This document shows positions 942 through 51,423 of a stretch of 64,000 nt of DNA, piece by piece. The translations under genes were made by a program, and so were the position numbers. Source of the DNA: a candidate division WOR-1 bacterium RIFOXYB2_FULL_46_45 (GTDB lineage: Bacteria > Margulisbacteria > WOR-1 > XYC2-FULL-46-14); assembly GCA_001771585.1 (NCBI GenBank), contig MEUE01000001.1:964040-1028039 (forward strand), read 5' to 3'. Below the pieces are notes generated by a model. It made no database searches and had not been told where the DNA came from. It was given only the letters and a program-made list of their open reading frames with translations. Position 1 is the stretch's first letter. Each line of letters begins with the position of its first letter.

Positions 942-968
942 TTATCTTTAATTTTTAGGGAAAATTTC
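942..968 (-). promoter_or_regulatory. Sigma-28-like promoter element of the 79-897 gene
   Basis: On the minus strand this reads GAAATTTT, an 11-base spacer, then AAAGATAA. It matches the element seen before about a dozen genes here (consensus GAAATTTY-N11-AACGATAW). The -35 half overlaps the divergent trpA promoter region. Confidence 0.45.
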
Positions 969-993
969 ACTTAATTTTGGTATACTTGGCATT

Positions 994-1728
994 ATGTCTA
1001 AATTATCCGAAGCTTTTAAAAACAAAAAAGCCTTAATTACCTATATCACCGCCGGGGATCCGAATTTGGGGACGACCGAGAAATTGGTCTATGCCCTCGA
1101 AAAAGCCGGAGCGGACATTGTCGAATTAGGGATCCCTTTTTCCGATTCGCTGGCCGACGGGCCGGTGATCCAGGCCTCTCATCTTCGGGCGTTAAAGACC
1201 TCGTTGAATGATGTTTTCAAACTGGTCAAAAAGCTTCGCAAAAGAACCCGGATTCCGATTGTCCTGATGCTGGCGGATAACCTCGTAGTTAAATACGGAT
1301 CAGAAAAATTTTATCTCGATGCGGAAAAGGTTGGCGTTGATGGGGTGATTATTCCGGACCTGCCACCGGACCAAGGCGTAGGCGCAGGCATAGGCGTAGA
1401 TAAAATCCTATTGATTGCTCCAACGACTACCGAGGAACGGATCAAAATGATTGCCGAGCAATCGAGCGGATTTATTTATCTGGTTTCTTTGGCCGGGATA
1501 ACGGGGAAACGCAAAAATTTGTCGGCCGGGCTTCCGGAGCTGGTCCAAAAAATAAGAAAATATACGGACAAGCCGATCGCGATCGGGTTTGGGATCTCGA
1601 ATCCGAAACAGGCAGCGGCCGCGGCAAAGATTGCCGACGGCGTGATCGTCGGCTCCGCGATAGTTGGACAACCCTTACCTAAAGTTGAAAAGTTCGTCAA
1701 ATCACTCCGTCATGCAATTGATAGATAG
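994..1728 (+). CDS. trpA: Tryptophan synthase alpha subunit
   Basis: TrpA cleaves indole-3-glycerol phosphate to indole and glyceraldehyde 3-phosphate and passes indole to TrpB. The protein has 244 residues, slightly shorter than the usual 260-270. The catalytic region reads ELGIPFSDSLADGP, with the catalytic Glu and Asp present (Ser replaces the common Pro of SDPLADG). VDGVIIPDLPPDQ and the phosphate-binding GFGIS...VIVGSAIV follow. After PPDQ the expected helix is replaced by a GVGAGIGV stretch encoded by a hexamer repeat (1375-1398). No trpB is in the window. A TATACT -10 box at 981-986 lies 7 bases before the ATG, so the mRNA may be leaderless. Confidence 0.93.
   Translation: MSKLSEAFKNKKALITYITAGDPNLGTTEKLVYALEKAGADIVELGIPFSDSLADGPVIQASHLRALKTSLNDVFKLVKKLRKRTRIPIVLMLADNLVVKYGSEKFYLDAEKVGVDGVIIPDLPPDQGVGAGIGVDKILLIAPTTTEERIKMIAEQSSGFIYLVSLAGITGKRKNLSAGLPELVQKIRKYTDKPIAIGFGISNPKQAAAAAKIADGVIVGSAIVGQPLPKVEKFVKSLRHAIDR
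1375..1398 (+). repeat. In-frame GGCRHA hexamer block in trpA
   Basis: Four consecutive hexamers (GGCGTA, GGCGCA, GGCATA, GGCGTA) are read as Gly-Val-Gly-Ala-Gly-Ile-Gly-Val. They occupy the place of the helix after the PDLPP motif. Related blocks occur in mnmG, nadC and the porin gene at 58566. Confidence 0.7.
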
Positions 1729-2254
1729 ATTTTTTTATCGCTTCCGGCAATTTCTCTTCGCGATGTCGGCAACAATGAACGAGACCGACTGGCATTTTGT
1801 TAAACGCTATCTGAATATCGAAGAGCTGGCCCTTTTTCAAAAGCTCCCCGATTTTGAGCAGAAACATTCGGTAACGGTCGCCCATAAAATCGAAGAACTG
1901 ATCCACGGGCGGCACGATGTCGACGAGCGGAAGGCAATTAAACTCGGCCTGCTCCACGATATCGGAAAAATTGACGGGCACCTTTTGCTTTTCCAGAAAA
2001 GCTTTTTGACGATTATCCGTTTTTTTCTTCATCCTCTCTATGATCTTCTGGCTTATCTGGGGGAGGATAAAAAAGCGCGCCGGATTTTCCGCAAATTTTA
2101 TATCCACAAGCACCATGGGGCGATTGGGGCGGAACTGTTGGAAAAACTAGGGGAAGACAGAGAGATCGTAATTTGCACCCGGCTCCACGATTTTCCCGAA
2201 AAATGTGATAATATATATATGGAGCTTTTAGGAAAGGCGGACTCAACCTACTGA
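1712..2254 (+). CDS. HD-domain phosphohydrolase
   Basis: An HD-superfamily metal-dependent phosphohydrolase of 180 residues if started at the ATG at 1712, which overlaps the end of trpA by 17 bases. The metal-binding signature is visible: LLHDIGK in the middle, then HKHHGAIGAELL and a late RLHD. A hydrophobic stretch (LTIIRFFLHPLYDLLAYL) follows the HD motif. It is translationally coupled to queF (TGATG overlap), so trpA, this gene and queF probably form one transcript. The substrate is unknown; nucleotides are typical for the family. Confidence 0.75.
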   Translation: MQLIDRFFYRFRQFLFAMSATMNETDWHFVKRYLNIEELALFQKLPDFEQKHSVTVAHKIEELIHGRHDVDERKAIKLGLLHDIGKIDGHLLLFQKSFLTIIRFFLHPLYDLLAYLGEDKKARRIFRKFYIHKHHGAIGAELLEKLGEDREIVICTRLHDFPEKCDNIYMELLGKADSTY

Positions 2255-2628
2255 TGAAAGAATACACCGATCAACACGCGAAAGCGGGACTTAAGGAAAA
2301 ACTTCCGGAAATTGACGTTTTTGAAAACAGTTTTAAGGATTACGAGATAACAATTGTCTTCCCGGAATTCACCTCGATCTGCCCCCGGACCGGGCTCCCC
2401 GATTTTGCCAAAATTACCATAAAATATGTTCCCCAAAAATACTGCTTAGAATTAAAATCGCTAAAAATGTACTTTCTTGCCTACCGCAACCTCGGGATTT
2501 TCAACGAAAACGTCGTCAACCGCATCTTGAAAGATATTGTCGCCGCCTGCAAGCCCAAGCGAGCGGAGGTTCTCGGCGAGTTTACCTCCCGCGGCGGGCT
2601 TTCTACTGAAATTTCCTCCCGATTCTAA
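2254..2628 (+). CDS. queF: NADPH-dependent 7-cyano-7-deazaguanine reductase
   Basis: QueF reduces preQ0 to preQ1 in queuosine biosynthesis. The 124-residue length fits the unimodular QueF type. The active-site Cys lies in FTSICPRTGLPDFA, and the family motif reads ELKSLKMYFLAYRNLG. The ATG overlaps the stop of the HD gene by one base. The last codons form the -35 part and spacer of a promoter element for the downstream gene (2608-2634). No other queuosine gene is in the window. Confidence 0.93.
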   Translation: MKEYTDQHAKAGLKEKLPEIDVFENSFKDYEITIVFPEFTSICPRTGLPDFAKITIKYVPQKYCLELKSLKMYFLAYRNLGIFNENVVNRILKDIVAACKPKRAEVLGEFTSRGGLSTEISSRF

Positions 2629-2634
2629 CGATAT
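2608..2634 (+). promoter_or_regulatory. Sigma-28-like promoter element of the 2676 gene
   Basis: GAAATTTC, 11 bases, then AACGATAT, continuing as an alternating TA run to 2640. The element sits in the end of queF. Predicted transcription would begin near 2641, giving a short leader with an AGAGGAGG ribosome binding site at 2659-2666. Confidence 0.5.
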
Positions 2635-2675
2635 ATATATAGAAAGGGACATTCCCCAAGAGGAGGATTTTATCT

Positions 2676-4376
2676 GTGTCAGCAATAGTTCAAAAACTAG
2701 GAGCGCGTCTGGCCGTTCCGGCTACCCGGACATTGGGTCGTGCCGCCAGGGCTATAACTACGATTAGGGGCTCTTATCCCGGGATAACCGGCCAGTTTTT
2801 AAGGCTGGCCGTTGGCAACACGGTTCTTCCTCATCCGGATTCTATTGCCAAAAGTGGAGCTATTTTATTTTCCGAATTGACCAGGGATATTACCGGGGCG
2901 GCCAACCAAACCGCCTGGTATATGGATACCAGGGCAAAACTCGAAAGAAAAGAAACCATTACAAGGGTAATTGTTAACTTTCCCCTGTGTGCAACAAATT
3001 CAAAATACGGCCATCCAGGAGGAGATGCTTTTCTTGCCGCTTTGTTTTCCGCGGTCGCTTCTTTTTTATCGTCCGAATATCCCGGACAACAAATAGGCGT
3101 TTACCGCCGGGGACCGAATTTTGAGATCGATATCCCTTCTTTTGTTGATGTGCGATCTTTTATGGCAAGACTCTACAAAAACCTTGACGGGCGCAGGATT
3201 GGTTTTGAATTCTCGAAAAAAGAAAACACCCCAAAAAAGAAAGGGTCGTCGGTTGTTTTTCCGAATATAGGGGCATGGCATTACGATCCAAAAGAACATT
3301 CCGGCCCCGCTTCGGTGGGAGAGCTTCGGACCGCCAGCGCGATTTGTTCCAGCCGCTTAAATCGACAGCCGGCAGAGCAAAGAGGTTCTTTTTCAGTTGA
3401 TGCCTATAATGAAGTCCTGGTCAAGAATTATTCCGCGGAATCGAGGGCTCCCGCCGAAAAGAAGGTCCGTTCACGCAGAATTATTGATACTCCGGAATGG
3501 AAGCCGTACCTGGATATTTTAAGAAAAAAGATAAGGGAGGCGCTTAGCTGGGCGGGGGTTAAAGGGGTATCTCAAGAATTGGTCAATGAGATTATCAGGT
3601 TAAAATATGTCGAACCGGACTCGGGTCTTCCAAATATCAACGCTTTTGATTTGATTGGTCCAGCGCTGGGAACAAGTTCCATCGGCTTTTTTGACGGGAA
3701 CAAGATCGGGGCGTTTGTCCGGTCTTTCGGCTTTTTGGGAGATTCGATGGTGGATATTATAATTTCACGAAGGATCTCTTCCGCGGCCGCCACCGTTTTG
3801 GCAAAAAGAGGGATTATTTTATTTCGGACCGGTCCGGGATCGGAAGAGTTTTGGGTGCTTGGAAAGGTGAAAAAAGAAGAGATGCTTGACGCGCTCGAAG
3901 AATTTACGGAGCAGGTTAACCGGCCCCTGCGTTTTAATATAAAGGTTTCCGAATTGAAGGCGGCCAAAGAGGGACAGGATTATCTTCGAAATAATTTTCC
4001 GGCCGACCTTACCGACGAAGATGAGGTAATAATCGACCTTTGCAAGATCAAAAGGCAGGAACGGTTTTCACAAATAACTTTCACGGGAGCGGCGCGTGAG
4101 ATGAATCCGCTTGCCGCGGAAGATGCCCGGCGCCATTTTTATTTTCACAAAAAGAGGGTAGAAGAGGCGGGGGAAAGAGCCAAAGAGGTCAATTTTGATA
4201 GAGTGGGATTTATTATGACGGTTGATCCGTACGGAGGATATAATTATCCTGGACACGAGGACTCTTTTTTGGTAAAAGCGGCCGAGGCACTCTCTTTTCT
4301 TTATACCTTTATTCCTCTTTCGGATATTTTGGGGCCGTTGTATCTTTGGTCCCTGAAACAGGCATCGCTAAAATAA
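2676..4376 (+). CDS. Putative protein with two degenerate GGDEF-like domains
   Basis: A 566-residue protein starting at GTG 2676 behind a strong AGAGGAGG site. Two segments resemble degenerate diguanylate-cyclase palms. The first has KYGHPGGDAFLAAL near residue 109 and RRGPNFEI near 143, where RxGGDEF would be expected. The second has SGLPNINAFD near 315 (like the TGLPNRRAF start of GGDEF domains), a lone Asp strand, FGFLGDSMVD, and RTGPGSEEFWVLG near 385 (GSEEF for GGDEF). The catalytic signature is altered in both, so a c-di-GMP or GTP binding or scaffold role is more likely than synthesis. The N-terminus is basic with no clear membrane helix. It is followed by the GAF-like gene. This is a motif-based inference. 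Confidence 0.5.
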   Translation: MSAIVQKLGARLAVPATRTLGRAARAITTIRGSYPGITGQFLRLAVGNTVLPHPDSIAKSGAILFSELTRDITGAANQTAWYMDTRAKLERKETITRVIVNFPLCATNSKYGHPGGDAFLAALFSAVASFLSSEYPGQQIGVYRRGPNFEIDIPSFVDVRSFMARLYKNLDGRRIGFEFSKKENTPKKKGSSVVFPNIGAWHYDPKEHSGPASVGELRTASAICSSRLNRQPAEQRGSFSVDAYNEVLVKNYSAESRAPAEKKVRSRRIIDTPEWKPYLDILRKKIREALSWAGVKGVSQELVNEIIRLKYVEPDSGLPNINAFDLIGPALGTSSIGFFDGNKIGAFVRSFGFLGDSMVDIIISRRISSAAATVLAKRGIILFRTGPGSEEFWVLGKVKKEEMLDALEEFTEQVNRPLRFNIKVSELKAAKEGQDYLRNNFPADLTDEDEVIIDLCKIKRQERFSQITFTGAAREMNPLAAEDARRHFYFHKKRVEEAGERAKEVNFDRVGFIMTVDPYGGYNYPGHEDSFLVKAAEALSFLYTFIPLSDILGPLYLWSLKQASLK

Positions 4377-4379: not shown

Positions 4380-4406
4380 GAAATTTTATTATTGCTTTAC
4401 CGAAAT
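4380..4406 (+). promoter_or_regulatory. Possible sigma-28-like element before the GAF-like gene
   Basis: GAAATTTT, 11 bases, then ACCGAAAT. The -10 half is a weaker match than at other sites. It ends 6 bases before the ATG at 4413, so a transcript from here would be leaderless. Confidence 0.3.
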
Positions 4407-4412: not shown

Positions 4413-5162
4413 ATGACAAAGATATGGACTAATCACAGGGGAAAACCTGTGGATTTGGCGGCGGTCTTTTCCAGCTTTTCGGGGTTTTCTCCCGGGAAAA
4501 AGGTCTTATCTGTTCCTTCAAGCGAACGGTTTTTCACTTTATTTAGAACTGGCGGAGAGGCGGGTTTTTTTGCCGGCGCGGCAAGAGAAGCGGCTTCCTG
4601 TTTTAGCGATGCCGCGGGGGTCTTTGTTTATGCCGCAAAGGAAGGATATTACCGGCTTGAGGCAAATTTCGGGAGCTTGCTCCCGGCGCGAATTAGCGCG
4701 GCTATGCTGCAGTCACCCGACAGTATCCTTTATGCCGCAGCGGAAATAGACGAAAGGAAAGCGCAGTATCCCATTTTTTTAGGAACGATTTATATTCCCA
4801 ACATAAGTACGGAGAAGATTTTTTTGGTTTTCGACAGAAATCGAACAAGTTTTCCTCCCGGGCTTTTAAGTTCCGATAACGATGTTTTAATAAAAAAATT
4901 TAATAATGCCAGGGAGTTTTCCGTGGTTGCTACGTTAGATTGTGGAAAAATGCGGCAAGCCCGGTTTATCCCTTCAATTGTTGTTGCTCCTCTTTTGGAT
5001 GGAGAGAGGAGAAAGGGAATTGGTTCAATTGTGATGGTCGGGAAAAGGGCCGGTTTTTTGGGAAGACATTCCGAAGAGGGACTCCATCTTAAAAGAGGGG
5101 TTGATTTTGCGCAAAATCTGTCCGAGGCATACCAAAGAATATTAAGGCAAAGCAGGTATTAA
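4413..5162 (+). CDS. Putative GAF-like domain protein
   Basis: A 249-residue protein from the ATG at 4413; an upstream in-frame TTG at 4392 has no better ribosome site. The C-terminal part ([18 protein letters not shown], then SIVMVGKR and a helix ending in NLSEAYQ) follows the pattern of the last strands and helix of a GAF sensory domain. An earlier [16 protein letters not shown] strand pair fits the GAF start. It lies 36 bases after the GGDEF-like gene and probably works with it in signalling. The 3' end overlaps the convergent mnmG stop by 4 bases. The ligand is unknown. Confidence 0.45.
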
Positions 5163-12707: not shown

Positions 12708-13442
12708 CTACTGACCAAGTTCATATCCCGTTCTTATCATACTTTCCAAAAAGGTTGTTGCATCTTCTTCGGGCAATTTAAACATTACTCCGCTTAAGCG
12801 GTCGTGGAGCATTAATTGCCTAATATTTGAACAATTTATTTGCATTGCCCTATTATTGCGGACCATGTCCGGAGCATCATAATAAACAAACGGAGTATCA
12901 GGATGATCTTCTTGATTTAATGGGTTAATCCAATCTAACCTGCTTCCCTGATCACACACTAAAATCACTTGCCTATGCCAATCTCTTGGCAAATCTCGAT
13001 TCTGATTACCACGAAATAAATTGCTCCACATATATATCACAGAGAGTCCCGCCGAAATTATTCTTTCTGTCGCATTCAATACACTACGACTATCGGCTTT
13101 TTCAAGCGCACAATCACCAACGAGAAAATATCTGCAGCCGGATGAAATGACCGTGTCAAGGGGGTCCATTTGGCCAAACAGTGTGTTGGTTGGGAGAATG
13201 TTATAAGTTCCAATAGAGACAAAATCGCTCCCTTCCGCCATTCTTGCCATCCTATCAGCTAACACAGGGGGAGAAAAAATCACAAGGTGAGCGTTCTCTC
13301 TTTTTATTTTTTTTATATTTTTTTCGTCTAAAGCGAGAGACGAGGCCGATCGAACAATCGATTCGGCCGCAGGTTTCCCGATATTCCCGGGCATAACCGC
13401 GACCATTAACTTTATTCGTCCAATGTTTCCCACGGCTGACAT
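12708..13442 (-). CDS. Triosephosphate-isomerase-like protein lacking catalytic residues
   Basis: The 244-residue protein tracks the TIM sequence pattern. SPPVLADRMARMAEGSDFVSIG followed by TYNILPTNTLFGQMDPLDTV resembles the TIM segment ending AQN..GAFTGE. GCRYFLVGDCALEK stands where GHSERR should be, so the electrophilic His is Asp. LSVIYMW corresponds to the PILCVGE strand. No catalytic Lys near the N-terminus and no AYEPVWAIGTG loop are seen. It is therefore probably a TIM-fold relative without isomerase activity. AAAGGAGG precedes the ATG. It is divergent from ychF. The homology is my pattern reading and needs a profile search. Confidence 0.5.
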   Translation of the reverse strand: MSAVGNIGRIKLMVAVMPGNIGKPAAESIVRSASSLALDEKNIKKIKRENAHLVIFSPPVLADRMARMAEGSDFVSIGTYNILPTNTLFGQMDPLDTVISSGCRYFLVGDCALEKADSRSVLNATERIISAGLSVIYMWSNLFRGNQNRDLPRDWHRQVILVCDQGSRLDWINPLNQEDHPDTPFVYYDAPDMVRNNRAMQINCSNIRQLMLHDRLSGVMFKLPEEDATTFLESMIRTGYELGQ

Positions 13443-13489: not shown

Positions 13490-13536
13490 CCAGCCTAACC
13501 TATGCCCTCCCGATAAGTTATCTTCATTGTTTTTGG

Positions 13537-13564
13537 GAAATTTCAGGTTGTTTTGGGTTATAAT
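13537..13564 (+). promoter_or_regulatory. Promoter of ychF
   Basis: A perfect TATAAT (13559-13564) lies 5 bases before the ychF ATG, so the mRNA is predicted to be leaderless. A GAAATTTC lies at 13537-13544, the position used by the sigma-28-like set, but the -10 half here is the ordinary TATAAT type. Confidence 0.5.
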
Positions 13565-19168: not shown

Positions 19169-19195
19169 GAAATTTCTTTAATTTCTTCCAGATAC
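19169..19195 (+). promoter_or_regulatory. Sigma-28-like element of the 19246 gene
   Basis: GAAATTTC, 11 bases, CCAGATAC. GATA falls at the conserved position; the preceding bases differ. It lies between divergent ilvN and the TIM-barrel gene. Confidence 0.3.
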
Positions 19196-19245: not shown

Positions 19246-20259
19246 ATGAAAAAAGCAGAAGGATTATATAGGCCGGTGAAGCCCAAATTATATGGCTTTC
19301 CGGCAGTTGCTCCGATCAGATTGGGGATGCACTGTCGCGGACAGCACGACTTTAATTTTATCCGTGCGTCAAGAGCGCCGCTCTCTCTTGTGGAAATAAA
19401 GCCGGAAAAATTCCAGGGAAAACAAAAACTATTTTTCTTTCAAAATGGAGAATTTCGGCCGCATGTAGAAAACTTGGGGACATTAGTCGCACAGACAAGA
19501 GAGATGGCATTGGATGTGCAGTTTCATTTTCCGATTCAAGAGTTGGAAGGAATAGGGTTGAACCCGGGATTACGGGACGATCATTTGGCGATTGTATCCT
19601 TGTTTTTGGCGATCGCGGAAGCGAACGAACAATTTAACTTTCTTCCCAACGTAACAATCCATCCGCCGACGCTGATGTGGAGAGACAAACGGTTTATTCA
19701 TCCCCTGGATGCCGGCCGCGCGCTGGAAAACAATAGGCGGCTCCTGGAAAAATTGGGGAATACAGCCGGTGGAAGAAAAAAATGGCCAATTAGAATAGGG
19801 ATTGAAAACCAGGCCGACCCTACAATTGATTCCCATGGACTGGGCTATTTGCCGTTGCATATCAGGGGCTTACTTGTGGGAACCCCAAATTGGGTCCAGG
19901 CGACAGTTGATTCCGGGCACCGGAATTTATCCGGCCGGTTATCGGTGACGCAAATCGTAGAAATGCTGGCGGATATGGGCAAATGGATAATAAATTTTCA
20001 TTTTCATGAAAATGAAGGGCAGGTAACCCATACCGCCGATGACGATCTTCACAGGTTGCCATTGGGAGAACACATCCACGGATATTTAAACTACTTAAAC
20101 CGGGCAGTACAGGAGGGGATCCCGATTATTCTGGAGGTTAACACCAGAGATTATAATCCGGTTCAATTCATGGTTGTTTCGTGCGGGATCCGCTATCTGA
20201 TGGAGAAGATCAAGGAAGAGAATCTTGCGGCAATAAAAGCAGGAAAAAGTTATACCTAA
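19246..20259 (+). CDS. AP endonuclease/xylose isomerase-like TIM-barrel protein
   Basis: A 337-residue protein with the metal-site pattern of the AP endonuclease 2 / sugar isomerase barrel. [10 protein letters not shown] carries the strand Glu, VQATVDSGH the Asp-x-x-His, FHFHEN the strand His and [10 protein letters not shown] the late Glu. The N-terminus ([14 protein letters not shown]) is unusual for DNA-repair AP endonucleases, so a sugar or other isomerase or a diverged nuclease is possible. A single gene inserted between ilvN and ilvB on the opposite strand; the 3' end overlaps ilvB by 4 bases. The substrate is unknown. Confidence 0.6.
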
Positions 20260-23491: not shown

Positions 23492-23682
23492 CTTTTTTGA
23501 TCTCTTCCCTTTCTTGACTACACCTTCCAAAAAATTGTTTTTTCTTGTTTTGCGGGGCAGGTTAATTTAGGAAATTTAGGGTAAAATAATGTGGGAGGCG
23601 ACAATATACTTATTAAAGAACTCAGTCAAAGTGGCGAAGAGTTCTACTTTTGTACGGCATAGAAAAAACCAATTGTCTGCCA

Positions 23683-23709
23683 CAAGTTTTAATCAAAATA
23701 TTACGATAA
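23683..23709 (+). promoter_or_regulatory. Sigma-28-like element of the lipoprotein gene
   Basis: CAAGTTTT, 11 bases, TACGATAA. The -10 half is a strong match, the -35 half differs at two positions. Confidence 0.35.
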
Positions 23710-23742: not shown

Positions 23743-24759
23743 ATTAATAAAATAAGAAACGGACTCTTTATCTTTTTAATTTTTCTTCTAATGCTATTAT
23801 CATTTGGCTGTGGAAAAACACAAAATATAGAAAATGCCACAGACGACAATGAAGAAACAAAAAGCGTATCAATCTCTCCAGAGATAATAATTCCAACTGC
23901 GGAATACATCAAAGCAAAACTCACAAACACGGTTTCCCGTGACGCAAGAGTAGAACTGGAGGTTTATACAACAGCCTTTAATGCTGTTAGTCCGGAAACC
24001 TTTGCAGCAGACCTTATCACTAAGTATGGAGAAACCAAAGCATTTTTACTGGTATCCTATATTGACAAGACTATAACCGACCTAAAAGACATAGAAAACA
24101 AACTAAAGAACACCTATGGTGTAAATATTTTCTTTCCAAAAGTAGTCTTTATGGTCGATAAAACCTTTAATGGGATTGCAACTTATGACCGTCTAAAAAT
24201 CATACTATCTGCTCCGTCGGCAGAAGAAGAAAATGAACTACTAAAACCGATCCTGGCACATGAATACGGACATTTTCTGTCCTTCCATAATCCGGATGGA
24301 ACGGTAGCAATTACCAGTGCACAAAACGCTTTTAATATTGATATGAACGAAATGTCAACAAAAGGAGTTGTAGACAGATATCACCTTAAAAATATCTATT
24401 TTAAGCCATATTTATCTAAACCGTTGACAGAACTAGAATATTGGGGAATGGTAGAAATAATGGCTCAAAAAGTTATGGCGGAGCTTTCCGATTATAAAGA
24501 TGAGAGAGCCCTATTGAAGTGGATTGTAAATAGTTACAGCATTAAAAGCAAGAACCTTCCTCCCGGATCCCCACCAATAGAATCAGCATATCTATACGCC
24601 TTGTTTTTTTCAGAAAAATACAATTTACCTAAATATCAAACAATATTTAATAATAGACTACTGAACAGTAAAACTATCAGTGGGCAGGCGCAGATAGACG
24701 CAAGCATAAAAAAACTAAAATATTTCTATAATAATATAACCATTAGCTCAACCCCATAA
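23743..24759 (+). CDS. Secreted lipoprotein with an HExxH metalloprotease-like motif
   Basis: From an ATT codon at 23743 the protein begins NKIRNGLFIFLIFLLMLL then SFGCGK, a complete lipoprotein signal with the lipobox Cys. AGGAGG lies 8 bases before that ATT, whereas the first ATG (23791) has no ribosome site and falls inside the signal peptide. A non-canonical ATT start is therefore proposed. The mature part contains ILAHEYGHFLSFHN, a zincin HExxH motif, and later a Glu-rich helix (YWGMVEIMAQKVM) that could give the third ligand. The gene is visibly richer in A and T than its neighbours and sits beside the mobile-looking island, so it may be acquired. A surface or periplasmic peptidase is plausible; the family is not recognised. 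Confidence 0.6.
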   Translation: MNKIRNGLFIFLIFLLMLLSFGCGKTQNIENATDDNEETKSVSISPEIIIPTAEYIKAKLTNTVSRDARVELEVYTTAFNAVSPETFAADLITKYGETKAFLLVSYIDKTITDLKDIENKLKNTYGVNIFFPKVVFMVDKTFNGIATYDRLKIILSAPSAEEENELLKPILAHEYGHFLSFHNPDGTVAITSAQNAFNIDMNEMSTKGVVDRYHLKNIYFKPYLSKPLTELEYWGMVEIMAQKVMAELSDYKDERALLKWIVNSYSIKSKNLPPGSPPIESAYLYALFFSEKYNLPKYQTIFNNRLLNSKTISGQAQIDASIKKLKYFYNNITISSTP

Positions 24760-26515: not shown

Positions 26516-26542
26516 GAAATTTTATCCAAAAGCGAACGATAA
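26516..26542 (+). promoter_or_regulatory. Sigma-28-like promoter of the FHA gene
   Basis: GAAATTTT, 11 bases, AACGATAA: a full match to the consensus. Transcription would begin near 26549, followed by an AAGGAG site and the ATG at 26570. Confidence 0.5.
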
Positions 26543-26569: not shown

Positions 26570-27898
26570 ATGGCATGGTATCACGTGTCCTGGAATCCGT
26601 TCAGACCCATAATCGGCTATCGATGCAGGGCGGCTTCTTTGGCGGGATCCTTGGGAAGCAAGCTTAGGGCGGTCCCCAAAAAGGGTTTTGACCAAAAACA
26701 GCCGGACTCACTGGCCTTTCTGCGAGTGGGAGACACCAGTTTTTTTCTTAATGAAAACGCTTGCGCGTTTATCGGGAACAAGAGCGGCTGCGCGTTGAGG
26801 ATTTTTGACGAGAGCATTGCCGGGGAGCATGCTTTGGTTGAGCACGAAGCGGGGGAGGTTGCCACGGAAACAGCCGGCCTGGAGGAAAAGGCGATTAGTT
26901 TTACAATTCAAGCCCGGTCTTTTGGCCGGCGCGTTATTATTAAATCTTTATCCGAAAAAAAACCGATAGTTTTAGATACCGAAACGGAGCCTTACGGGTT
27001 AAGGAATGGAGACCGTATTTTTCTGGAAACGACAAAACACGATCCGCGAACGGGAGAGATAGAGTTGGTTGAACTGGAATATATAACGATTCAAAGGAGA
27101 ATTAACGGGGATCAGCCGCAAGCTTTATCGCCATTGCGGTCATTGGAAACAAGTAAATTGGTCGAATTATCCAAAAGATCTTTTCCCGAGCCGTGTGATA
27201 ATGAAGCCGTGGTCAGAGAGCTTGTTTTTCGCGCCCAAAAAGGAGACAAAACTGCTCTTGATTGCTTATCTAAAAAATGGAAAATAGGACGGGATTATCC
27301 TTGCAATGAGATTAATCGTTTATATGCTTTTAATCTTTTGCCGGATTTGCTTACAGTCGTGCCTTTGGACAATCCGTGCTGGAAACGTTTCGCGGCTTGG
27401 GGAACCCCGGAGATTAAGCAATGGATCACCCGGAATTGTACGCTTAGGTTAAAAGAAATAATTGAAAGCGCTTTCGGCGGCGAGTTGCGAGATCAAACCT
27501 GGTTGCGGCAGCATTTTTTGTCCCAGAATATCAGGGACCTCGATAAAGAGACGATGAAAAAAATGGCTTCATTTTTTAGCGCTTATAATTTAGTGCGTCT
27601 GGAGAAGGACTTTCCCAAGTTTCTTGATGTTGCGCGAGAAAGGTTGTTGTCGCTGGCCGTGGAAGGAGATATTGAGGCGGAAAAAGCGATCGCGAAACGG
27701 CTTGCGGCTTGGGAGGCCGGAGAGGTGCTGGCTTTGTTTGAAAGAGGCATTTTGGAAAAAATCCTTGATCGAGCGGAGCTTCATGTTTGTATTAAGTGCA
27801 AGACAAAGCTTTTTAACGCCCGACAACTTGACGAGAACGCGCGGCTAGACGGTCCATTGGATGTGATTGTTGAAGAAATAGCTAAAAAAACGGAGTGA
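26570..27898 (+). CDS. FHA-domain protein with C-terminal CxxC
   Basis: A 442-residue protein. Residues about 50-175 follow the forkhead-associated fold: FLRVGDTSFFLNENACAFIG, then SIAGEHALVEHE (the S-x-x-H of phosphothreonine recognition), VIIKSLSEKKP and LRNGDRIFLE. The rest is helical and may be repeat-like (RLLSLAVEGDIEAEKAIAKRL), ending with CIKCKTKLFN, possibly half a zinc site. FHA domains bind phosphothreonine peptides, so a signalling adaptor role is likely. A hairpin with a T-run at 27914-27940 follows. Confidence 0.6.
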   Translation: MAWYHVSWNPFRPIIGYRCRAASLAGSLGSKLRAVPKKGFDQKQPDSLAFLRVGDTSFFLNENACAFIGNKSGCALRIFDESIAGEHALVEHEAGEVATETAGLEEKAISFTIQARSFGRRVIIKSLSEKKPIVLDTETEPYGLRNGDRIFLETTKHDPRTGEIELVELEYITIQRRINGDQPQALSPLRSLETSKLVELSKRSFPEPCDNEAVVRELVFRAQKGDKTALDCLSKKWKIGRDYPCNEINRLYAFNLLPDLLTVVPLDNPCWKRFAAWGTPEIKQWITRNCTLRLKEIIESAFGGELRDQTWLRQHFLSQNIRDLDKETMKKMASFFSAYNLVRLEKDFPKFLDVARERLLSLAVEGDIEAEKAIAKRLAAWEAGEVLALFERGILEKILDRAELHVCIKCKTKLFNARQLDENARLDGPLDVIVEEIAKKTE

Positions 27899-31114: not shown

Positions 31115-31141
31115 GCAATTTTCTTCCGATTTTAACGATAA
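31115..31141 (+). promoter_or_regulatory. Sigma-28-like promoter of the TPR orphan
   Basis: GCAATTTT, 11 bases, AACGATAA, then ATATATAGA. The spacer resembles that of the 2608 site (both contain TTCCGAT or TCCCGAT), which suggests relatedness beyond the promoter boxes. Confidence 0.5.
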
Positions 31142-31201: not shown

Positions 31202-32812
31202 ATGACGGCTTATTTAGGAAGAATCTATCGTTTACCTGCCAGGATATTGAGTCGAGTGGTTATGTCTGCTGCAAATATTGCCCTATTATCACCACCGATC
31301 ATCCATCATCAACCGCCGGCCACCCAGGTTGGCGCGAAGGGATGGAATCCGGCTAAAGAGGATTACTTGGTTTTAGGATCGGCAAAGATAATGGCAAGAG
31401 TTGATCGAGCCGGAAGTCTTTCTCTTGAAATCGCCGAGAGCATTGTGAGAGCAAATAGACAAAAGTCTGAGCCGGTTTTGTATACAGGAGCAGGCACCTA
31501 TGAGAGCAAAGATTTTTTGGCGACAGGAGCAAAGAGGGCTGTTTTTGTTGATAAGGGTGATTACATACCAGAAATCAGAGAACGAATAGTTAGAGGTCTT
31601 TGGGAAAGCCTACAGGAATTTGGGGCCGCAGATTTTACTCTGGTTCATAACGGCAAAGAAAGGTTTGTCTTTCGGTTTAAATTCTACGGAGAAGAAAAAG
31701 AAATAGCTTGTTATTCGGGAGATCTTGATAGCTTATTTTACTCTTTTTCCCCGATAGAACTTGAAGGTGGAATTTCTCATTTAATCTCATTACATCGTCC
31801 TTGTAATCCATCTCATATTTCTCCAAACTTGCTTGCCAAAGTAGTGATTGGCGGTCATGTTGAAGGGATGTTGGGATTAGATTCTCATCTTTTGGAAAAC
31901 CTGCTTGGGCTCCAGTTACTACATGGCAAACCGAGCACCGCAGGGTATAACAAGTATAGAAAGTTAAAACATGTAGATTTTACTCGTGGGGCAGTCCCTT
32001 GTTTTGTCGATAATGCAAGTGAAATTGTTATAAGAATAGATTGTTTGCTAGAAAGAAAACCCTATAAAGTGGAGGATCCTAATTATTCTTTGGACAAGTT
32101 GGAAAGAAAGGGCTTTAAGGTTTTGCCGGGACAGGATCCAATAGAAGTTGAACTTGAATATGACCTTTTTAGATTGGTTAAAGGTTTTAATGGTCTTAGG
32201 AAAAATTTTGATGAGATGAATGAAGGGGAGAGGAGTATTGCACTTTCATATTTTAAAACAAGGCTTTTTAGTGCCGGGGTGTATCGGGAGAGGATAGACA
32301 GGGGATTGCTGCTTTATTTCCCTGAACTTTTTGAAGAAGAAGAGGCCAACACCCTTGCCGATGCTTACAAGGAAGCTTGTGTCTTGAGGAAAACAAGAGA
32401 CCGTCTCGCAGGCGGCCAGAATGATTTTGATGGGGTTACATTGGGGGAAGCGGAGAGGTATTTTTTTAGAATCGCTTCTCTTGTTGACAACCCAAGATTA
32501 TCAGAAGATGGCCAGGGTAGAGTTCGTGCGCTGTTGTGGGCAACAATTAAAGACAGGCCAAGATTTAAGAGTAGGCTTTTTGATTTATTTATCGAAAATG
32601 AAAAGTACGAAGAATTAGGGCTATTGATTAAATTATCATTTGAAGAAGAGCCTAATAATCCCCAAAACCGTTATATTCTTGCCGCTTGCCTTTTCAATCT
32701 GGGAAGATTTCAAGAAGCTTTAGATCAAATAAACAGGGCGCTTGAAATCGAACCGGATAATCCAACTTTTAAAGAAACAAGAGCCGAAATTTTACAAAGC
32801 ATTCTTGCTTAA
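31202..32812 (+). CDS. Hypothetical protein with C-terminal TPR
   Basis: A 536-residue protein with an AGGAGGG site before the ATG. The C-terminal 45 residues form at least one TPR (RYILAACLFNLGRFQEALDQ then a Pro-containing INRALEIEPDNP end). Residues about 95-115 read VLYTGAGTYES and GAKRAVFVDKG, loosely like the glycine loop and acidic strand of a Rossmann methyltransferase. That is a weak similarity and the following segments are not recognised. The N-terminal 45 residues are basic and Pro-rich, a feature also seen in other genes of the sigma-28-like set. The role is unknown. Confidence 0.5.
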   Translation: MTAYLGRIYRLPARILSRVVMSAANIALLSPPIIHHQPPATQVGAKGWNPAKEDYLVLGSAKIMARVDRAGSLSLEIAESIVRANRQKSEPVLYTGAGTYESKDFLATGAKRAVFVDKGDYIPEIRERIVRGLWESLQEFGAADFTLVHNGKERFVFRFKFYGEEKEIACYSGDLDSLFYSFSPIELEGGISHLISLHRPCNPSHISPNLLAKVVIGGHVEGMLGLDSHLLENLLGLQLLHGKPSTAGYNKYRKLKHVDFTRGAVPCFVDNASEIVIRIDCLLERKPYKVEDPNYSLDKLERKGFKVLPGQDPIEVELEYDLFRLVKGFNGLRKNFDEMNEGERSIALSYFKTRLFSAGVYRERIDRGLLLYFPELFEEEEANTLADAYKEACVLRKTRDRLAGGQNDFDGVTLGEAERYFFRIASLVDNPRLSEDGQGRVRALLWATIKDRPRFKSRLFDLFIENEKYEELGLLIKLSFEEEPNNPQNRYILAACLFNLGRFQEALDQINRALEIEPDNPTFKETRAEILQSILA

Positions 32813-44447: not shown

Positions 44448-45251
44448 CTATCTAGTTACTTCAATTCTATTCGCAACGTCGGGATTTGAGGAATAGGCCA
44501 TATATAAAACTAATCCAAACTCAACACAAACTTGTTTTGTAAACGCCATAAGTTCGACAAGAGAACGTCTGCCAAAGAGATATTCCCGTTCTAACTTATC
44601 TATCGTTCTTTCCATTGCTTCCTGATTTAATCTTGGAGTAGCTGTTGTTTTTAAAACAAGCATTGTCGTTTGCTGCCACGCCACCATCATAAATACTTGT
44701 TCTTCATCACCGATAAATGTTTTGAAGTCACGCCCACTAAAATGTAAACCCGCAGTTTCTGACCCAGGATGGGTATGAACAAAACCACTCCTTTTGTAAG
44801 CATTTAGAAACGTACTGGGGAAACTCCATGAAAGTTTGACTGAAGTTTCTGTTCCTCTAGTGATCTCATTTGAAGCAATTAGCTTGCTCTCCAATGTGCT
44901 TACAAGAAACGTCCTGGCATGCTCTAAACCACTCCCCCTGGTAAGATCACTTAGTCTTCTTGTGATTTGACTAAGAAATCCAATCTTAATAGTATCGGGC
45001 CTCGTTCTTGCTTCTAAGTAGCTGCCATAAGTAGACATAGAGATAACTCTTTCTCTAAAAGCTGCAAAGTCCCATTTTGGAATAAAATGGTTTCTGTCAG
45101 AAGCCCGTGCCGTTCCACCAATAGGAGATTGCCTCGGAGTAGTATAAGCATATGGAATTCCAGCGCCTCTGTTTGAAGGGGCAGTATGTGGGGAACTAGT
45201 CGCCGGTACTCCAAAAACCGAATAAAGACTACCGTATGGACCGCTTTTCAT
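44448..45251 (-). CDS. JAMM/MPN+ metalloprotease-like protein
   Basis: 267 residues. SGFVHTHPGSETAGLHFSGRD near residue 155 fits the JAMM zinc motif: HxHP, nine residues, SxxD (given in outline). An upstream Glu in LIASNEITRGTE could be the catalytic acid, and EEQVFMMVAW fits the next strand. JAMM enzymes cut isopeptide or peptide bonds, often after ubiquitin-like tails. The N-terminal 50 residues are Ser/Pro/Gly rich and probably disordered. It has the sigma-28-like promoter. No ubiquitin-like partner is seen next to it. Confidence 0.6.
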   Translation of the reverse strand: MKSGPYGSLYSVFGVPATSSPHTAPSNRGAGIPYAYTTPRQSPIGGTARASDRNHFIPKWDFAAFRERVISMSTYGSYLEARTRPDTIKIGFLSQITRRLSDLTRGSGLEHARTFLVSTLESKLIASNEITRGTETSVKLSWSFPSTFLNAYKRSGFVHTHPGSETAGLHFSGRDFKTFIGDEEQVFMMVAWQQTTMLVLKTTATPRLNQEAMERTIDKLEREYLFGRRSLVELMAFTKQVCVEFGLVLYMAYSSNPDVANRIEVTR

Positions 45252-45287: not shown

Positions 45288-45314
45288 ATATCGTCAAATT
45301 TCAATGGAAATTTC
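45288..45314 (-). promoter_or_regulatory. Sigma-28-like promoter of the JAMM gene
   Basis: Minus strand GAAATTTC, 11 bases, GACGATAT, then a TA run ending ATATAGA, nearly identical to the 2608 site. Confidence 0.5.
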
Positions 45315-45444: not shown

Positions 45445-45606
45445 ATGACCGACCAAAGACCGACCGCGAGCGAACTTTTGAACCAGGTGGCCGAATTTGA
45501 AAATACTCTTTCAACCCTCCAGAAAAATGTCAGCGAGCTGAAGAACCGCCTGATGCGCAACCGCGATCAGCATGGCGACGACGTCTCTCAGTGGCCGAAC
45601 TTATAA
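45445..45606 (+). CDS. Small coiled-coil protein
   Basis: A 53-residue protein starting at ATG 45445 with GGAGG 9 bases upstream and a TATAAT box at 45420-45425. The centre (LLNQVAEFENTLSTLQKNVS then ELKNRLM) has heptad spacing of hydrophobic residues, so a short coiled coil is likely. No signal peptide. Its end overlaps the convergent gene by 6 bases. The function is unknown. Confidence 0.6.
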   Translation: MTDQRPTASELLNQVAEFENTLSTLQKNVSELKNRLMRNRDQHGDDVSQWPNL

Positions 45607-46230
45607 TACCAATACTTCTTTTTCTGTTTTCACGGCGCCGGTATTACCCGCGAGTGTCCTTCTTTTTGCCATCTCATCCTCGACAATCTCAAGCCTTTGC
45701 CCAAGGTCGTTATAAATTAGAAGCGTTCTTTTTGTATGTTGAGCCGACGGCAAGTCATACTTGACAGCAAAATCGAAAGAGTCCTGAGTTCGCCGGAAGG
45801 TTTTTTCCATAATTTTCCCCCAAAAACGGACCACGCATTTTTCTCCGGGCAATCCCCACAAAGAAAATCTGGCTAGCCCCAAAATTGCGCCGATTGCCGA
45901 AGAAAAACTGGAATCAAAAAGTTCCAGTTCAAGCTTGTGTAGGAGCATTGCGGCCGGATCAATATCGTCAAACCTATACAAGGTTTGTTCCAGGATGTTT
46001 TCCGGTGCAACGGCAAAAACCCTGGTATAATTAAGAATTATTTCTTTTGGTGTCCCTCTGGTTAAAGTTGCCGCTCCGCCAAAGGTTTCCGGAAGATGTT
46101 TTGAGGCCGGAATTATTACCAACGGGTCCAGTCCTTGTGCCTTCTGGCGGCCTATCATTGCAAGCATCGGATCCCAGGACGGCGAATGCGGATAACACGG
46201 AAAAGTCGGGGTAACGTGTACAAATCTCAT
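45601..46230 (-). CDS. Hypothetical protein, possibly GT4-like N-terminus
   Basis: 209 residues, family not recognised. The start MRFVHVTPTFPCYPHS and MIGRQKAQGLDPLVIIPAS loosely recall the first strand and helix of GT-B glycosyltransferases, but the nucleotide-binding half is missing, so this is not a full enzyme of that kind. The predicted promoter ends 7 bases before the ATG and there is no Shine-Dalgarno, so the mRNA is probably leaderless. Confidence 0.5.
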   Translation of the reverse strand: MRFVHVTPTFPCYPHSPSWDPMLAMIGRQKAQGLDPLVIIPASKHLPETFGGAATLTRGTPKEIILNYTRVFAVAPENILEQTLYRFDDIDPAAMLLHKLELELFDSSFSSAIGAILGLARFSLWGLPGEKCVVRFWGKIMEKTFRRTQDSFDFAVKYDLPSAQHTKRTLLIYNDLGQRLEIVEDEMAKRRTLAGNTGAVKTEKEVLVL

Positions 46231-46237: not shown

Positions 46238-46264
46238 ATTTCATCCCGTTTTTTAAAAAATTTC
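46238..46264 (-). promoter_or_regulatory. Sigma-28-like element of the 45601-46230 gene
   Basis: Minus strand GAAATTTT, 11 bases, GATGAAAT. The -35 overlaps the stop of the preceding gene. Confidence 0.35.
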
Positions 46265-47913: not shown

Positions 47914-48891
47914 CTATAAAGAACTTACGATTCTTTGTATAAGATGTCGGGTCTCTTGTTGCTGATTTGGGACCAAAAAGTAACTTGGGCTGGTGGCGAT
48001 TGTTATAAAGTCCGCCTGCCTGGCTATCTCGATTATTCTTTCAATATCTGCTTCCTTGTTATACTTTGGATCTTCAGGATGATTATAATGGGGACAAAAG
48101 AAATCAAGATCAAGATCCAAAACGACCGGCTTTCCTTCCCTTCTGCTTTTATCAATTGCTTCCCGGTATTTTTCCAGTGAAAGTTCGGTCAGGTCAAGGC
48201 AGCTTGAAGTATAGTTGTTGTCCGAATCGGAATAAAATTTTTTAGTTTCAATTCCCCGGCCGTTAAAAAAAGGATGGATAAAATAAAATAGTGCATGAGG
48301 GTCAATCGCCCCAATTCTTTGGCCAAAATCGATAAAATTGCAAATTTCTACCTCTTCCCAAGTTATACTTGCTATTTCTTTCAGAGATAAAGGGAATCCT
48401 TTTAAGCCACGACTTGATGCTCGGCAGGGATCATGATCGGGATGAGAATCGATATGGATTAAAACGGCGTTTTCTCCAATTATCCCTGTTTCCTTGGCCA
48501 AAGCCCAGGCAAAGGCCGCATGGGTATGGTCGTCACTGACAAAAACCAGTTTTCCTGTTTTTGTTGGAATTAGCAGGTATTCTTTCAGGTAAGGCATTGA
48601 TATTTCGGAATCGGCATTTTCCGGTTTGCCTCTTACTTGATAAAAACTTAAATCTTGATGGTGGCCGATAACGATCGGGCTTACTCTTTGTTCCGGAAAT
48701 ACGTGTTTTCTTCCAAAACCAACCGCTCTTATATTGTTATAATATGTGCAGGATATTCCAGAACAGCTGGGAGAAAAATGCCGAAGCAGTTTGTCGGCGT
48801 AAAAACCGGAGTACAGCTTTCCCAAAATTGCTGTTCCAATTACACCTCGATATCGTGCGGCTACGGCTCTGGCGGCCTCTATTCTGCTCAT
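47914..48891 (-). CDS. UPF0489-type (arginase-like fold) protein
   Basis: 325 residues. DDHTHAAFAWALA, VLIHIDSHPDHDP, CNFIDFG and VVLDLDLDFFCP match the UPF0489 pattern; the HxDxHxD and DxDLDFF motifs look like binuclear metal sites of the arginase/deacetylase fold. The activity of this family is not established to my knowledge. The promoter element at 48898-48924 ends 6 bases before the ATG, implying a leaderless mRNA. Confidence 0.7.
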   Translation of the reverse strand: MSRIEAARAVAARYRGVIGTAILGKLYSGFYADKLLRHFSPSCSGISCTYYNNIRAVGFGRKHVFPEQRVSPIVIGHHQDLSFYQVRGKPENADSEISMPYLKEYLLIPTKTGKLVFVSDDHTHAAFAWALAKETGIIGENAVLIHIDSHPDHDPCRASSRGLKGFPLSLKEIASITWEEVEICNFIDFGQRIGAIDPHALFYFIHPFFNGRGIETKKFYSDSDNNYTSSCLDLTELSLEKYREAIDKSRREGKPVVLDLDLDFFCPHYNHPEDPKYNKEADIERIIEIARQADFITIATSPSYFLVPNQQQETRHLIQRIVSSL

Positions 48892-48897: not shown

Positions 48898-48924
48898 TTA
48901 TCATTCAAAAATGGCGGAAATTTC
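48898..48924 (-). promoter_or_regulatory. Sigma-28-like promoter of the UPF0489 gene
   Basis: Minus strand GAAATTTC, 11 bases, AATGATAA: one mismatch to the core consensus. Confidence 0.45.
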
Positions 48925-49077: not shown

Positions 49078-49809
49078 ATGCCAATCGGTATTATCGGCGG
49101 TTCGGGACTTGATGATCCGCAATTGCTAAAAGAGGTAAAAGATAAAGAGATCGAGACCCCGTACGGCGAACCCTCTTCCAAACTGACTTTTGGAAAGTTC
49201 GAAGGGAAAGAGGTCGTAATTCTGGCCCGCCACTCCAAAGACCACTCCATCTACCCGACCGGAGTGAATTTCCGCGCCAACATCTGGGCGCTCAAAGAGG
49301 CCGGCTGTAAAATAATTTTAGCCACCACCGCGGTTGGATCGCTTAAAGAAGAGATCAAACCGGGAGACCTGGTCTTCCCCGACCAGTTTATCGACTTTAC
49401 CAAACTGCGCCATCTCACTTTTTTCCACGATAAAGTCATCCATACCGCCATGGCCGATCCCTTCGATAAAGATTTACGTGAACTGTTGATCGGTTGTGCC
49501 AAGAAACTCGGGTTCTCTTTTCATTCAAAAGGGACGGTTGTCACAATCGAAGGCCCGCGCTTCTCTACCCGGGCCGAATCGCACATGTTCCGCCAGTGGG
49601 GAGCGGACATCATCAATATGTCTTCTGTTCCCGAAGTTGTTTTGGCCAATGAACTGGGGATGAAATACCAGGCGATCGCCATGTCGACCGATTACGACTG
49701 CTGGAGAGTGGGGGAGGAGCCGGTGACCTTTGAAATGGTCATGAAGGTAATGAAGGAAAACGCCGAAAAGGTCAAAAAATTATTATTGGAGGCGATTGTA
49801 CATCTATGA
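49078..49809 (+). CDS. mtnP: S-methyl-5'-thioadenosine phosphorylase
   Basis: MtnP cleaves methylthioadenosine to adenine and methylthioribose 1-phosphate. 243 residues from ATG 49078: GIIGGSGLDD, ARHSKDHSIYP, TIEGPRFSTRAES and NMSSVPEVVLANE. STDYDCW carries the Asp that selects 6-aminopurines, supporting MTA over guanosine. It overlaps apt, which salvages the adenine product. Confidence 0.94.
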   Translation: MPIGIIGGSGLDDPQLLKEVKDKEIETPYGEPSSKLTFGKFEGKEVVILARHSKDHSIYPTGVNFRANIWALKEAGCKIILATTAVGSLKEEIKPGDLVFPDQFIDFTKLRHLTFFHDKVIHTAMADPFDKDLRELLIGCAKKLGFSFHSKGTVVTIEGPRFSTRAESHMFRQWGADIINMSSVPEVVLANELGMKYQAIAMSTDYDCWRVGEEPVTFEMVMKVMKENAEKVKKLLLEAIVHL

Positions 49810-50330
49810 AATTAGAAAAACATATAAGAACCGTCCCGCATTTTCCCAAAGAGGGGATCATGTTCAAGGATATTACGACCTTATTAAAACATAAAGACGC
49901 TTTCCGATTCGCGATCAAGGAATTTACAGAGAGATATAGGGATTCCGGCATCACCAAAGTAGTCGGAGCCGAATCGCGCGGGTTTATCTTCGGCGCGGTC
50001 TTGGCGCACGAGCTCAATTGCGGCTTTGTCCCCGCCCGCAAAAAAGGGAAACTCCCCGCCAAATCGATTTCGGAAGAATACGAACTGGAGTACGGAACCG
50101 ATTCTTTGCATATGCATGAAGACGCGATTGAAAAAGGGGACAAGGTTTTGGTGGTGGATGATTTAATCGCCACTGGCGGTACAGTTAAAGCGGTTTGCGA
50201 TATGGTCAAAAAACTCGGCGGCACCGTTGTCGAATGCTCCTTCTTAATCGAGCTGACCTTCCTAAAAGGAAGGGAGAAGCTCGGTAATATCCCGGCCTTC
50301 TCCCTTATAACCTACGATTCGGAGGAGTGA
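49806..50330 (+). CDS. apt: Adenine phosphoribosyltransferase
   Basis: Apt converts adenine and PRPP to AMP. 174 residues: RTVPHFPKEGIMFKDITTLL start, ESRGFIFGAVLAHEL, and the PRPP-binding VLVVDDLIATGGT. It is coupled to mtnP by a 4-base overlap, forming an MTA-adenine-AMP salvage pair. Convergent with rpoD, 4 bases between stops. Confidence 0.96.
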   Translation: MKLEKHIRTVPHFPKEGIMFKDITTLLKHKDAFRFAIKEFTERYRDSGITKVVGAESRGFIFGAVLAHELNCGFVPARKKGKLPAKSISEEYELEYGTDSLHMHEDAIEKGDKVLVVDDLIATGGTVKAVCDMVKKLGGTVVECSFLIELTFLKGREKLGNIPAFSLITYDSEE

Positions 50331-50334
50331 CTTC

Positions 50335-51378
50335 CTACTGCAAATATTCCCTTAACTTTCTCGCTCGCGTAGGGTGCTTTAACTTCCGCAAAGCTTTCGC
50401 TTCAATTTGACGAATGCGTTCGCGGGTGACGCGGAATTCGCGTCCAACCTCTTCCAAAGTTCGCGGGTGCCCGTCATCCAATCCAAAGCGCATCTTAAGG
50501 ACCATCTTTTCCCGTTCGGTTAATGCCTTCATCACTTCTTCCAGATCGTCGCGCAAAAGCCCCTGGGTCACAATCTCTTCCGGTGCCTGCAGTCCGGCAT
50601 CTTCCACAAAATCTCCCAGCCTTGATGAATCTTCGTCTCCGACCGGCATCTCAAGAGAGAGTGGAACCTGCGAAACTTTGATGATTTCGCGAACTTTGTC
50701 GATTGAGACGCGCGCCCGCTTGGCGATCTCGCGTTCGGTCGGTTTGCGTCCGAGCTTTTGCAAAAGCTGGCGTGAAATTTTCCTCATCCGGTTGATCGTC
50801 TCAACCATGTGCACCGGAATGCGGATGGTGCGTGCCTGGTCGGCAATCGCGCGGGTGATCGCCTGCCTGATCCACCAGGTGGCGTAAGTAGAAAATTTGT
50901 AGCCCTTGCGGTGATCGAATTTTTCAACCGCGCGGATCAAGCCGAGGTTCCCTTCCTGGACCAAATCCAAAAAGAGCATCCCGCGGCCGGTATATTTTTT
51001 GGCGATCGAGACCACCAGGCGCAAATTGGAATTAACCAGCTTGTGTTTGGCGCGTTCTTCGTTCCGCTTGACCCTTTTGGCAAGGGAAACTTCTTCCTCT
51101 CCGGTTAGAAGCGGATAGCGGCCGATCTCCCGAAGGTACATCCTGACGGTATCGTCGATCCCGAAACCTTTGACCGATTCGATGTCCGCTTTGTTTTTCG
51201 GGACAAAGAAATTGGCATCGGCCGGTTTCTTTCCCTTTGATTCCGAGATCTCAACCCCGGTATCAAGCAGGGCCTCGATCTCGTCAAGGTTTTTTTCCGG
51301 TTCGGGATACATCTTCAGGATTTCATCCGGAGTGATGTAGCTTTTTCCGCCGACTCTTGGACTCTCAATCATTTTCAT
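50335..51378 (-). CDS. rpoD: Primary RNA polymerase sigma factor
   Basis: A group 1/2 sigma-70 factor of 347 residues. Region 1.2 ([18 protein letters not shown]), region 2 ([27 protein letters not shown] in outline, then [19 protein letters not shown]), region 3 and region 4 ([24 protein letters not shown]) are complete. The N-terminal region 1.1 is short. It follows dnaG as in many bacteria. The intergenic promoter at 51396-51423 is of the sigma-28-like type, so another sigma factor may help to express it. Confidence 0.95.
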
Positions 51379-51395
51379 CTGTCCCTCCTATATTT

Positions 51396-51423
51396 ATATC
51401 GTCTATAGGGATCTGGAAATTTC
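51396..51423 (-). promoter_or_regulatory. Sigma-28-like promoter of rpoD
   Basis: Minus strand GAAATTTC, a 12-base spacer (one more than elsewhere), GACGATAT, then AAATATAGG. The -35 lies in the last codons of dnaG. Confidence 0.4.

Follow-up and report, generated by a model that had tools for sequence, protein, structure and literature searches.

In the class 3 regulon governed by FliA in Escherichia coli and by SigD in Bacillus subtilis, promoters keep the register TAAAGTTT-N11-GCCGATAA, the FliA-family sigma factor is encoded among flagellar genes, and the targets are late genes. Members of the family can also act outside motility, as WhiG does in the non-flagellated streptomycetes, where it controls sporulation and has no flagellar gene neighbourhood. 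Apart from the sporulation role of WhiG and its lack of flagellar neighbours, these features have parallels in the system proposed here, which centres on a promoter element that precedes rpoD and a series of mostly uncharacterised genes in a 64,000-nucleotide (nt) stretch (the 'window') of the genome of candidate division WOR-1 bacterium RIFOXYB2_FULL_46_45. The organism belongs to Candidatus Saganbacteria (= candidate division WOR-1, Margulisiibacteriota), an uncultured class that is a sister lineage of the cyanobacteria and is represented by 31 genomes in the set that we searched.

Two further systems are close to this one. Bdellovibrio bacteriovorus has a global FliA regulon, active in the attack phase, with many uncharacterised genes; it is large and mostly non-flagellar, and a FliA-type motif stands before most of its promoters, including those of small RNAs (PMC3627812). 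Lysobacter enzymogenes, which lacks flagellin and stator, has a flagellar export system that still works and is reported to secrete proteins; its export genes have been kept after the loss of flagellin, FlgK/L, FliD and MotAB (PMC9927559). For the Saganbacteria, the explanation that we favour as a whole, and think quite probable, combines a sigma28-family promoter with two promoter codes, a cascade of two sigma factors (sigma1 and sigma2), and, as a hypothesis, export of the products through a flagellar gate.

The class A promoter and its targets

We define the class A promoter as TGAAATTT-N14-CGATAW (exact search form, GAAATTTY-N11-NAYGATAW; consensus of the refined matrix, TaaagTGAAATTTTttnnnnATTTTnACGATATATATATAg). 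It has the bipartite 8-11-8 layout and the CGATA -10 box of sigma28-type promoters. Four exact copies lie in the 64-kb window (2608+, 26516+, 45288-, 48898-), where shuffled sequences give an expectation of 0.01, and the number rises to 15 when two mismatches are allowed (3.15 expected); the 1.70-Mb genome has 31 exact copies and none of the reversed pattern. Of the first 30 genomic sites, 29 have an open reading frame (ORF) in the same direction, nearly always a long one, that begins no more than 300 nt downstream. A matrix trained outside the sample found 51 matches above 8 bits in 464 kb (control, 0), and a refined matrix, which took in the sample sites, found 69 above 15 bits in 624 kb (control, 1). 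As many as 59 of these 69 are situated no more than 150 nt upstream of a same-strand gene start, compared with 8% of random positions (p=3e-54). Shuffles, reversed controls and position tests together rule out chance as the origin of the motif. Part of the 624-kb sample was picked for sites already known, so the extrapolation from these 69 sites to 100 to 190 sites, and to more than 100 class A-driven genes, in the genome is a rough one.

These results support the proposal, made from the window alone in a preliminary description, that a sigma28/FliA-type promoter is common to mostly uncharacterised genes, and its expectation that matrix hits would be concentrated at gene starts and not before ordinary genes. 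All of the sites that it listed were recovered at or adjoining their places when the upstream regions of the window were scored. The contrast that it drew with housekeeping genes also holds: TATAAT-like boxes were found for 89 of 115 other promoter-bearing genes (54% in shuffled sequence) and for 15 of 30 class A genes (shuffled, 65%), the latter being without enrichment.

The motif recurs throughout the class. (In what follows, G000 is the present genome, other G numbers are genomes of relatives, and L numbers are loci.) A slightly relaxed form of the exact motif is present in 30 of the class's 31 genomes; the nearest relative has 76 sites, and controls have 0 or 1. In two distant class genomes (G044 and G047) the sites again lie just before genes. 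The strongest single case of conservation is rpoD, which has a class A site in all 22 genomes examined (the window, G047 and 20 others); in each of those 20, TGAAATT[TC] and CGATA stand at constant spacing just before the gene. The 12-base spacer previously noted at rpoD is real in this genome, but the other 21 have the normal one. The final codons of dnaG extend into the -35 box, which coding constraint could hold in place; in seven genomes, though, the dnaG stop clearly precedes the -10 box, which keeps its spacing even so, and conserved coding sequence was therefore rejected as the cause of the site. Beyond the class, motif A is also found before orphan genes in G004, G012 and G013 (L190-L208), and this type of regulon may predate the Saganbacteria.

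The sites and genes of the window are as follows (protein lengths in amino acids, aa).

942..968, - strand: class A promoter, matrix score 39.3, 44 nt upstream of the start of 79-897(-); GAAATTTTCCCTAAAAATTAAAGATAA
79..897, - strand: orphan target protein, 272 aa, no Pfam match
2608..2634, + strand: class A promoter, exact, matrix score 47.5; GAAATTTCCTCCCGATTCTAACGATAT
2676..4376, + strand: orphan target protein, 566 aa, no Pfam match; possible degenerate GGDEF domain, unconfirmed
4380..4406, + strand: class A variant promoter with -10 CCGAAAT (CGAAAT box), matrix score 27.9; ATG 6 nt downstream, probably leaderless
4413..5162, + strand: orphan target protein, 249 aa, no Pfam match
13518..13544, - strand: weak class A promoter of 12708-13442(-), matrix score 24.6, 75 nt upstream
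19169..19195, + strand: weak class A-like site before 19246-20259(+), matrix score 23.2, without the CGATA core
23682..23708, + strand: class B promoter (ACAAGTTTTAATCAAAATATTACGATA; found by the class B scan, see below) before a lipoprotein gene at about 23743-24759
26516..26542, + strand: class A promoter, exact, matrix score 35.0
26570..27898, + strand: orphan target protein, 442 aa, no Pfam match; FHA-like stretch by eye only
31115..31141, + strand: class A promoter (GCAATTTTCTTCCGATTTTAACGATAA), matrix score 43.7
31202..32812, + strand: target protein with C-terminal TPR repeats, 536 aa (PF14559, 5.4e-7)
45288..45314, - strand: class A promoter, exact, matrix score 43.1
44448..45251, - strand: orphan target protein, 267 aa, no Pfam match; JAMM-like HTHP..S..D string by eye
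46238..46264, - strand: class A variant promoter (-10 GATGAAAT) of 45601-46230(-), matrix score 22.5
48898..48924, - strand: class A promoter, exact, with ATGATAA, matrix score 35.4; ATG 6 nt downstream, probably leaderless
47914..48891, - strand: UPF0489-domain target protein, 325 aa (PF12640, 5.1e-8)
51396..51423, - strand: class A promoter of rpoD, overlapping the 3' end of dnaG, 12-base spacer; 22 of 22 class genomes examined
50335..51378, - strand: rpoD, housekeeping sigma factor (TIGR02393, 8e-116, above cut-off)

Two of the domain labels originally attached to these products, TPR and UPF0489, stand, but FHA, GGDEF, GAF and JAMM found no Pfam match at E<=0.05, and the 'partial' site of gene 23743 is present (ACAAGTTTTAATCAAAATATTACGATAA at 23682) but is of class B, not class A. 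The product of 44448-45251(-) has a long S/T/P-rich N-terminus; its structure model was too poor for use (mean pLDDT, the predicted local distance difference test score, 37).

Few of the target proteins are recognisable, and a signalling or developmental role for the set, as suggested in the preliminary description, is no more than a possibility. Only 8 of 30 have a Pfam match at E<=1e-4 (22 have none), compared with 10 of 10 random other genes; the matches are to TPR, UPF0489, protein kinase, a peptidoglycan-binding domain, ADP-ribosylglycohydrolase and a PEP (phosphoenolpyruvate)-utilising enzyme, with weak ones to M23 peptidase and a response regulator domain. Turnover of targets appears to be high, since few (a kinase family, a secreted protein and rpoD) are common to G000 and the two relatives examined.

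At 15 sites of the refined set an ATG follows GATAW at exactly 6 nt, while 7 nt and 8 nt were each found once; this peak is not a scoring artefact, because the scoring gave the same preference to an ATG at any distance of 5-8 nt. Read most simply, transcription from such sites would start at the A of the ATG and give leaderless messages, and about one-fifth of class A transcripts are probably of this kind. A strong class A promoter at C3:375328 (L029:1501-1606) leads into a stretch of only some 75 nt that closes with a terminator-like hairpin and T-run (folding z -2.5), a possible candidate for a FliA-dependent small RNA, or else an eight-codon ORF.

Two FliA-type sigma factors and a second promoter class

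Four sigma70-family genes are present in the genome: rpoD (in the window), one for an RpoE-like extracytoplasmic function (ECF) factor, and two of the FliA_WhiG type, whose products we call sigma1 and sigma2. The sigma28-family factor looked for by the preliminary description is thus represented twice over, and the idea that RpoD-type factors might be the only ones is refuted. FliA_WhiG (TIGR02479) is the best NCBIfam family for both (sigma1, 6e-40; sigma2, 2e-20), and sigma1 matches the solved WhiG chain (7lq4).

C3:15602-16270: sigma1, inside a flg/fli operon; 30 of 31 class genomes
C3:139905-140513: sigma2, adjoining flhA in many or most relatives; 29 of 31 class genomes

In contig order the sigma1 operon reads fliJ-I-H-G-F-E-flgC-flgB-sigma1-flgJ-like-flgI-H-A-G-F (names assigned by sequence and homology), and in the complete genome G064 sigma2 is 0.25 kb from flhA. 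The recognition helix of sigma2, GLSESQVSRIC (SESQVSRI), matches that of FliA in solved structures and fits the canonical ESRVSQ. The -35 recognition helix of sigma1, S[KR]PKVCRL, diverges from ESRVSQ and is nearly invariant in the class members aligned; a related helix, S[KR]SKVCRI, is found in paralogues from G004, G012 and G013, the genomes of the phylum outside the class in which motif A is present. Elsewhere in the genome, a GAF-sigma54 activator protein (C3:283442-284932, L144) suggests that sigma54 also operates.

A second promoter class, class B (TGCAAGTTTT-N13-CGATA), is present in all 31 class genomes (control, 0). Its -10 box and register are identical to those of class A, but the -35 boxes differ. 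An exact class B promoter precedes the fliK-flgD-flgE-fliM...flhA operon in G047 and G046, and the same operon has class B sites with matrix scores of 13 to 33 in G044, G048, G050, G064, G066, G068 and G070 and a weak one (5 bits) in G000; G048 has a strong class B site before one flg operon. Class B also stands before a conserved cluster (C1:163484-177060, L102), with counterparts in G050 and G064 (L257:68-9580; L269:712-15475), which encodes several S/N/G-rich, secreted-looking proteins of 70-110 aa, larger ones of about 520 and 700 aa, a giant protein and one resembling glycosyltransferases. No convincing Pfam family was found for the cluster proteins scanned, and the structure model of a 524-aa member is helical, with no significant fold match; the cluster is possibly an extracellular part that replaces the filament. 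A further protein, at C1:560003-573067 (L089), is 4355 aa or more in length and stands behind another class B promoter. In three genomes dnaG itself contains class B-like matches (window 52772, - strand; L248, L249), which are probably conserved coding sequence, not promoters.

From these comparisons, the assignment of class A promoters to a sigma factor of the FliA/WhiG (sigma28) family is well supported, and it is likely that sigma1 is the factor that reads them. In the cascade that we envisage, sigma2 would read class B and so build the apparatus, which includes sigma1, and sigma1 would then read class A and turn on a late set, in an early/late order like that of flagella.

The flagellar apparatus and possible export of class A products

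Searches of the 31 class genomes with the Flagellin_N and MotB_plug profiles found neither in any genome, a result limited by profile sensitivity (highly diverged forms could go undetected, just as the rod-protein profile at E 1e-3 missed this genome's short FlgE), and both profiles match in four flagellated control genomes. The late genes are therefore not those of a normal swimming flagellum. Other parts are retained: FlhA in 30 genomes (by profile), rod proteins in 30, and FliM/FliN in 27 (26 over the cut-off). The export apparatus comprises FlhA, FlhB, FliP, FliQ, FliR, FliI and FliH, the components other than FlhA being assigned by gene order, sequence and G000-G064 homology rather than by profile. 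FliG in two distant class genomes (G000:C3:12548-13045; L260:5420-5890) is only 156-165 aa long, consisting of FliG_N and FliG_M without the torque-generating C-terminal domain. The set thus differs from a motile flagellum (no flagellin or MotB in the 31 genomes, FliG not full-length), from a sigma28 flagellar regulon (class B, not class A, precedes the flagellar structural operons) and from an injectisome, or non-flagellar type III secretion system (G000 has a single FlhA/SctV gene, and no needle family of Pfam was found among the small class B proteins). It has the look of an export machine that lacks both propeller and torque.

What might such a machine export? Compared with other genes, the first 30 residues of class A products have more S/T/N/Q/G/P, more P and more R, and less D/E, whereas the interior (residues 120-150) is no different in composition. 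Sec-like N-termini are found in 5 of 71 class A targets and in 109 of 492 other genes; the N-terminal trends hold when Sec-like proteins are left out and recur in relatives (more weakly for P alone), and the S/T/N/Q/G/P enrichment is strongest for class B products. As a compositional trend, the class A N-termini resemble type III export signals, and we suggest as a hypothesis that the products exit via the flagellar export gate, sigma28 early/late logic having been reused for secretion.

A rival to the export step alone is that class A products act inside the cell, in a developmental or surface-attached state, and that their N-terminal composition is that of young, lineage-specific genes. We place this only a little short of an even chance: the targets include a kinase, a response regulator-like protein, a TPR protein, an ADP-ribosylglycohydrolase and rpoD, their turnover between genomes is high, and the FliA of Bdellovibrio is a global regulator with an attack-phase regulon (PMC3627812), but the shift in composition affects only the first 30 residues (it is absent at 120-150), persists without Sec-like proteins and is more marked for class B targets. 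Returning to export, the fullest form of that hypothesis is of a class-wide, non-motile secretion organelle that derives from the basal body of a flagellum: a canonical FliA would build the apparatus with its new axial cluster, and a paralogous FliA with re-tuned -35 specificity would release a large, fast-evolving exported set and raise rpoD. We offer this picture tentatively, and regard it as rather doubtful in its entirety.

Other readings, other systems and significance

It seems unlikely that a single FliA-family factor, the canonical sigma2, reads both promoter classes, the -35 difference only tuning strength. The -10 box and register are indeed shared, and intermediate sites exist (such as GCAATTTT at 31115 and CAATTTTT in L099), but the two -35 boxes are clearly distinct, each being conserved across the class, as are two sigma factors with two conserved, different recognition helices, and the two promoter classes have different targets (apparatus and small proteins for class B, orphans and rpoD for class A). 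It is very much less probable that class A is an ECF promoter, its -35 box being GGAAC-like, under the RpoE-type factor at C3:172296: the genome does have this one RpoE-like ECF factor, and GAAATT is similar to an ECF -35 box, but the CGATA -10 box is found also in class B, which precedes flagellar operons, and the factor was rejected as the class A reader because its own operon, where autoregulation would be expected, has no class A site upstream. Weak sigma70 promoters (TGAAA-N17-GATAAA) before poorly expressed genes, a reading that the preliminary description allowed, are barely tenable, as the hexamer spacing fits only under a relaxed reading, whereas the matrix information is in TGAAATTT and CGATA at exact, fixed spacing (0-1 control matches), and the TATAAT boxes seen in other genes of the genome are not enriched in class A genes.

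Several points weigh against the two-factor cascade with export. Both sigma1 and sigma2 fall below the NCBIfam curated cut-off for FliA (137 and 74 vs 190 bits), and the pairing of sigma1 with class A and sigma2 with class B is inferred from gene neighbourhood and recognition-helix divergence. Outside the class, G011, G015 and G024 have CR-type helices and no exact motif A matches; within it, G045 has sigma1 and no exact class A match. No FlgM was recognised by eye among the small targets, no genome-wide search for it having been made. What is proposed as an export signal amounts to no more than a trend in composition; Sec-like N-termini occur in at least 5 of the 71 class A targets, and metabolic or regulatory functions (kinase, ADP-ribosylglycohydrolase, rpoD) are also represented among the targets.

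Set beside the FliA and SigD regulons of E. coli and B. subtilis, the present system has GAAATTT and not TAAAGTTT as its -35 box, and its targets are orphan genes and rpoD, flagellin and stator genes not having been found in the class. Bdellovibrio differs in being a fast swimmer with the motif TTAAG-N16-CCGATA (PMC3627812), whereas here there are two motif classes and two FliA-family factors, and flagellin was not found. Lysobacter has also lost rod and C-ring genes (PMC9927559); the Saganbacteria retain the rod, rings, FliM/N and two sigma factors throughout the class, together with a new, co-regulated cluster of conserved genes. As far as we have found, neither of these organisms combines a global FliA regulon with filament-less export, or has two FliA factors with two promoter codes. 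The literature searched, outside which most subscription journals lay, yielded nothing on flagella in Saganbacteria, and the main Saganbacteria genome paper does not mention them.

By rough extrapolation, the analysis links more than 100 otherwise unreadable genes, in an uncultured lineage that is sister to the cyanobacteria, to a single promoter and to a sigma family that can be named. The pair of FliA-type factors, if they do use two separable promoter codes, would be a natural case of regulon divergence after duplication, and the signs of a flagellar export machine that is kept throughout the class, though neither flagellin nor stator could be detected, bear on the conversion between flagellum and secretion system.

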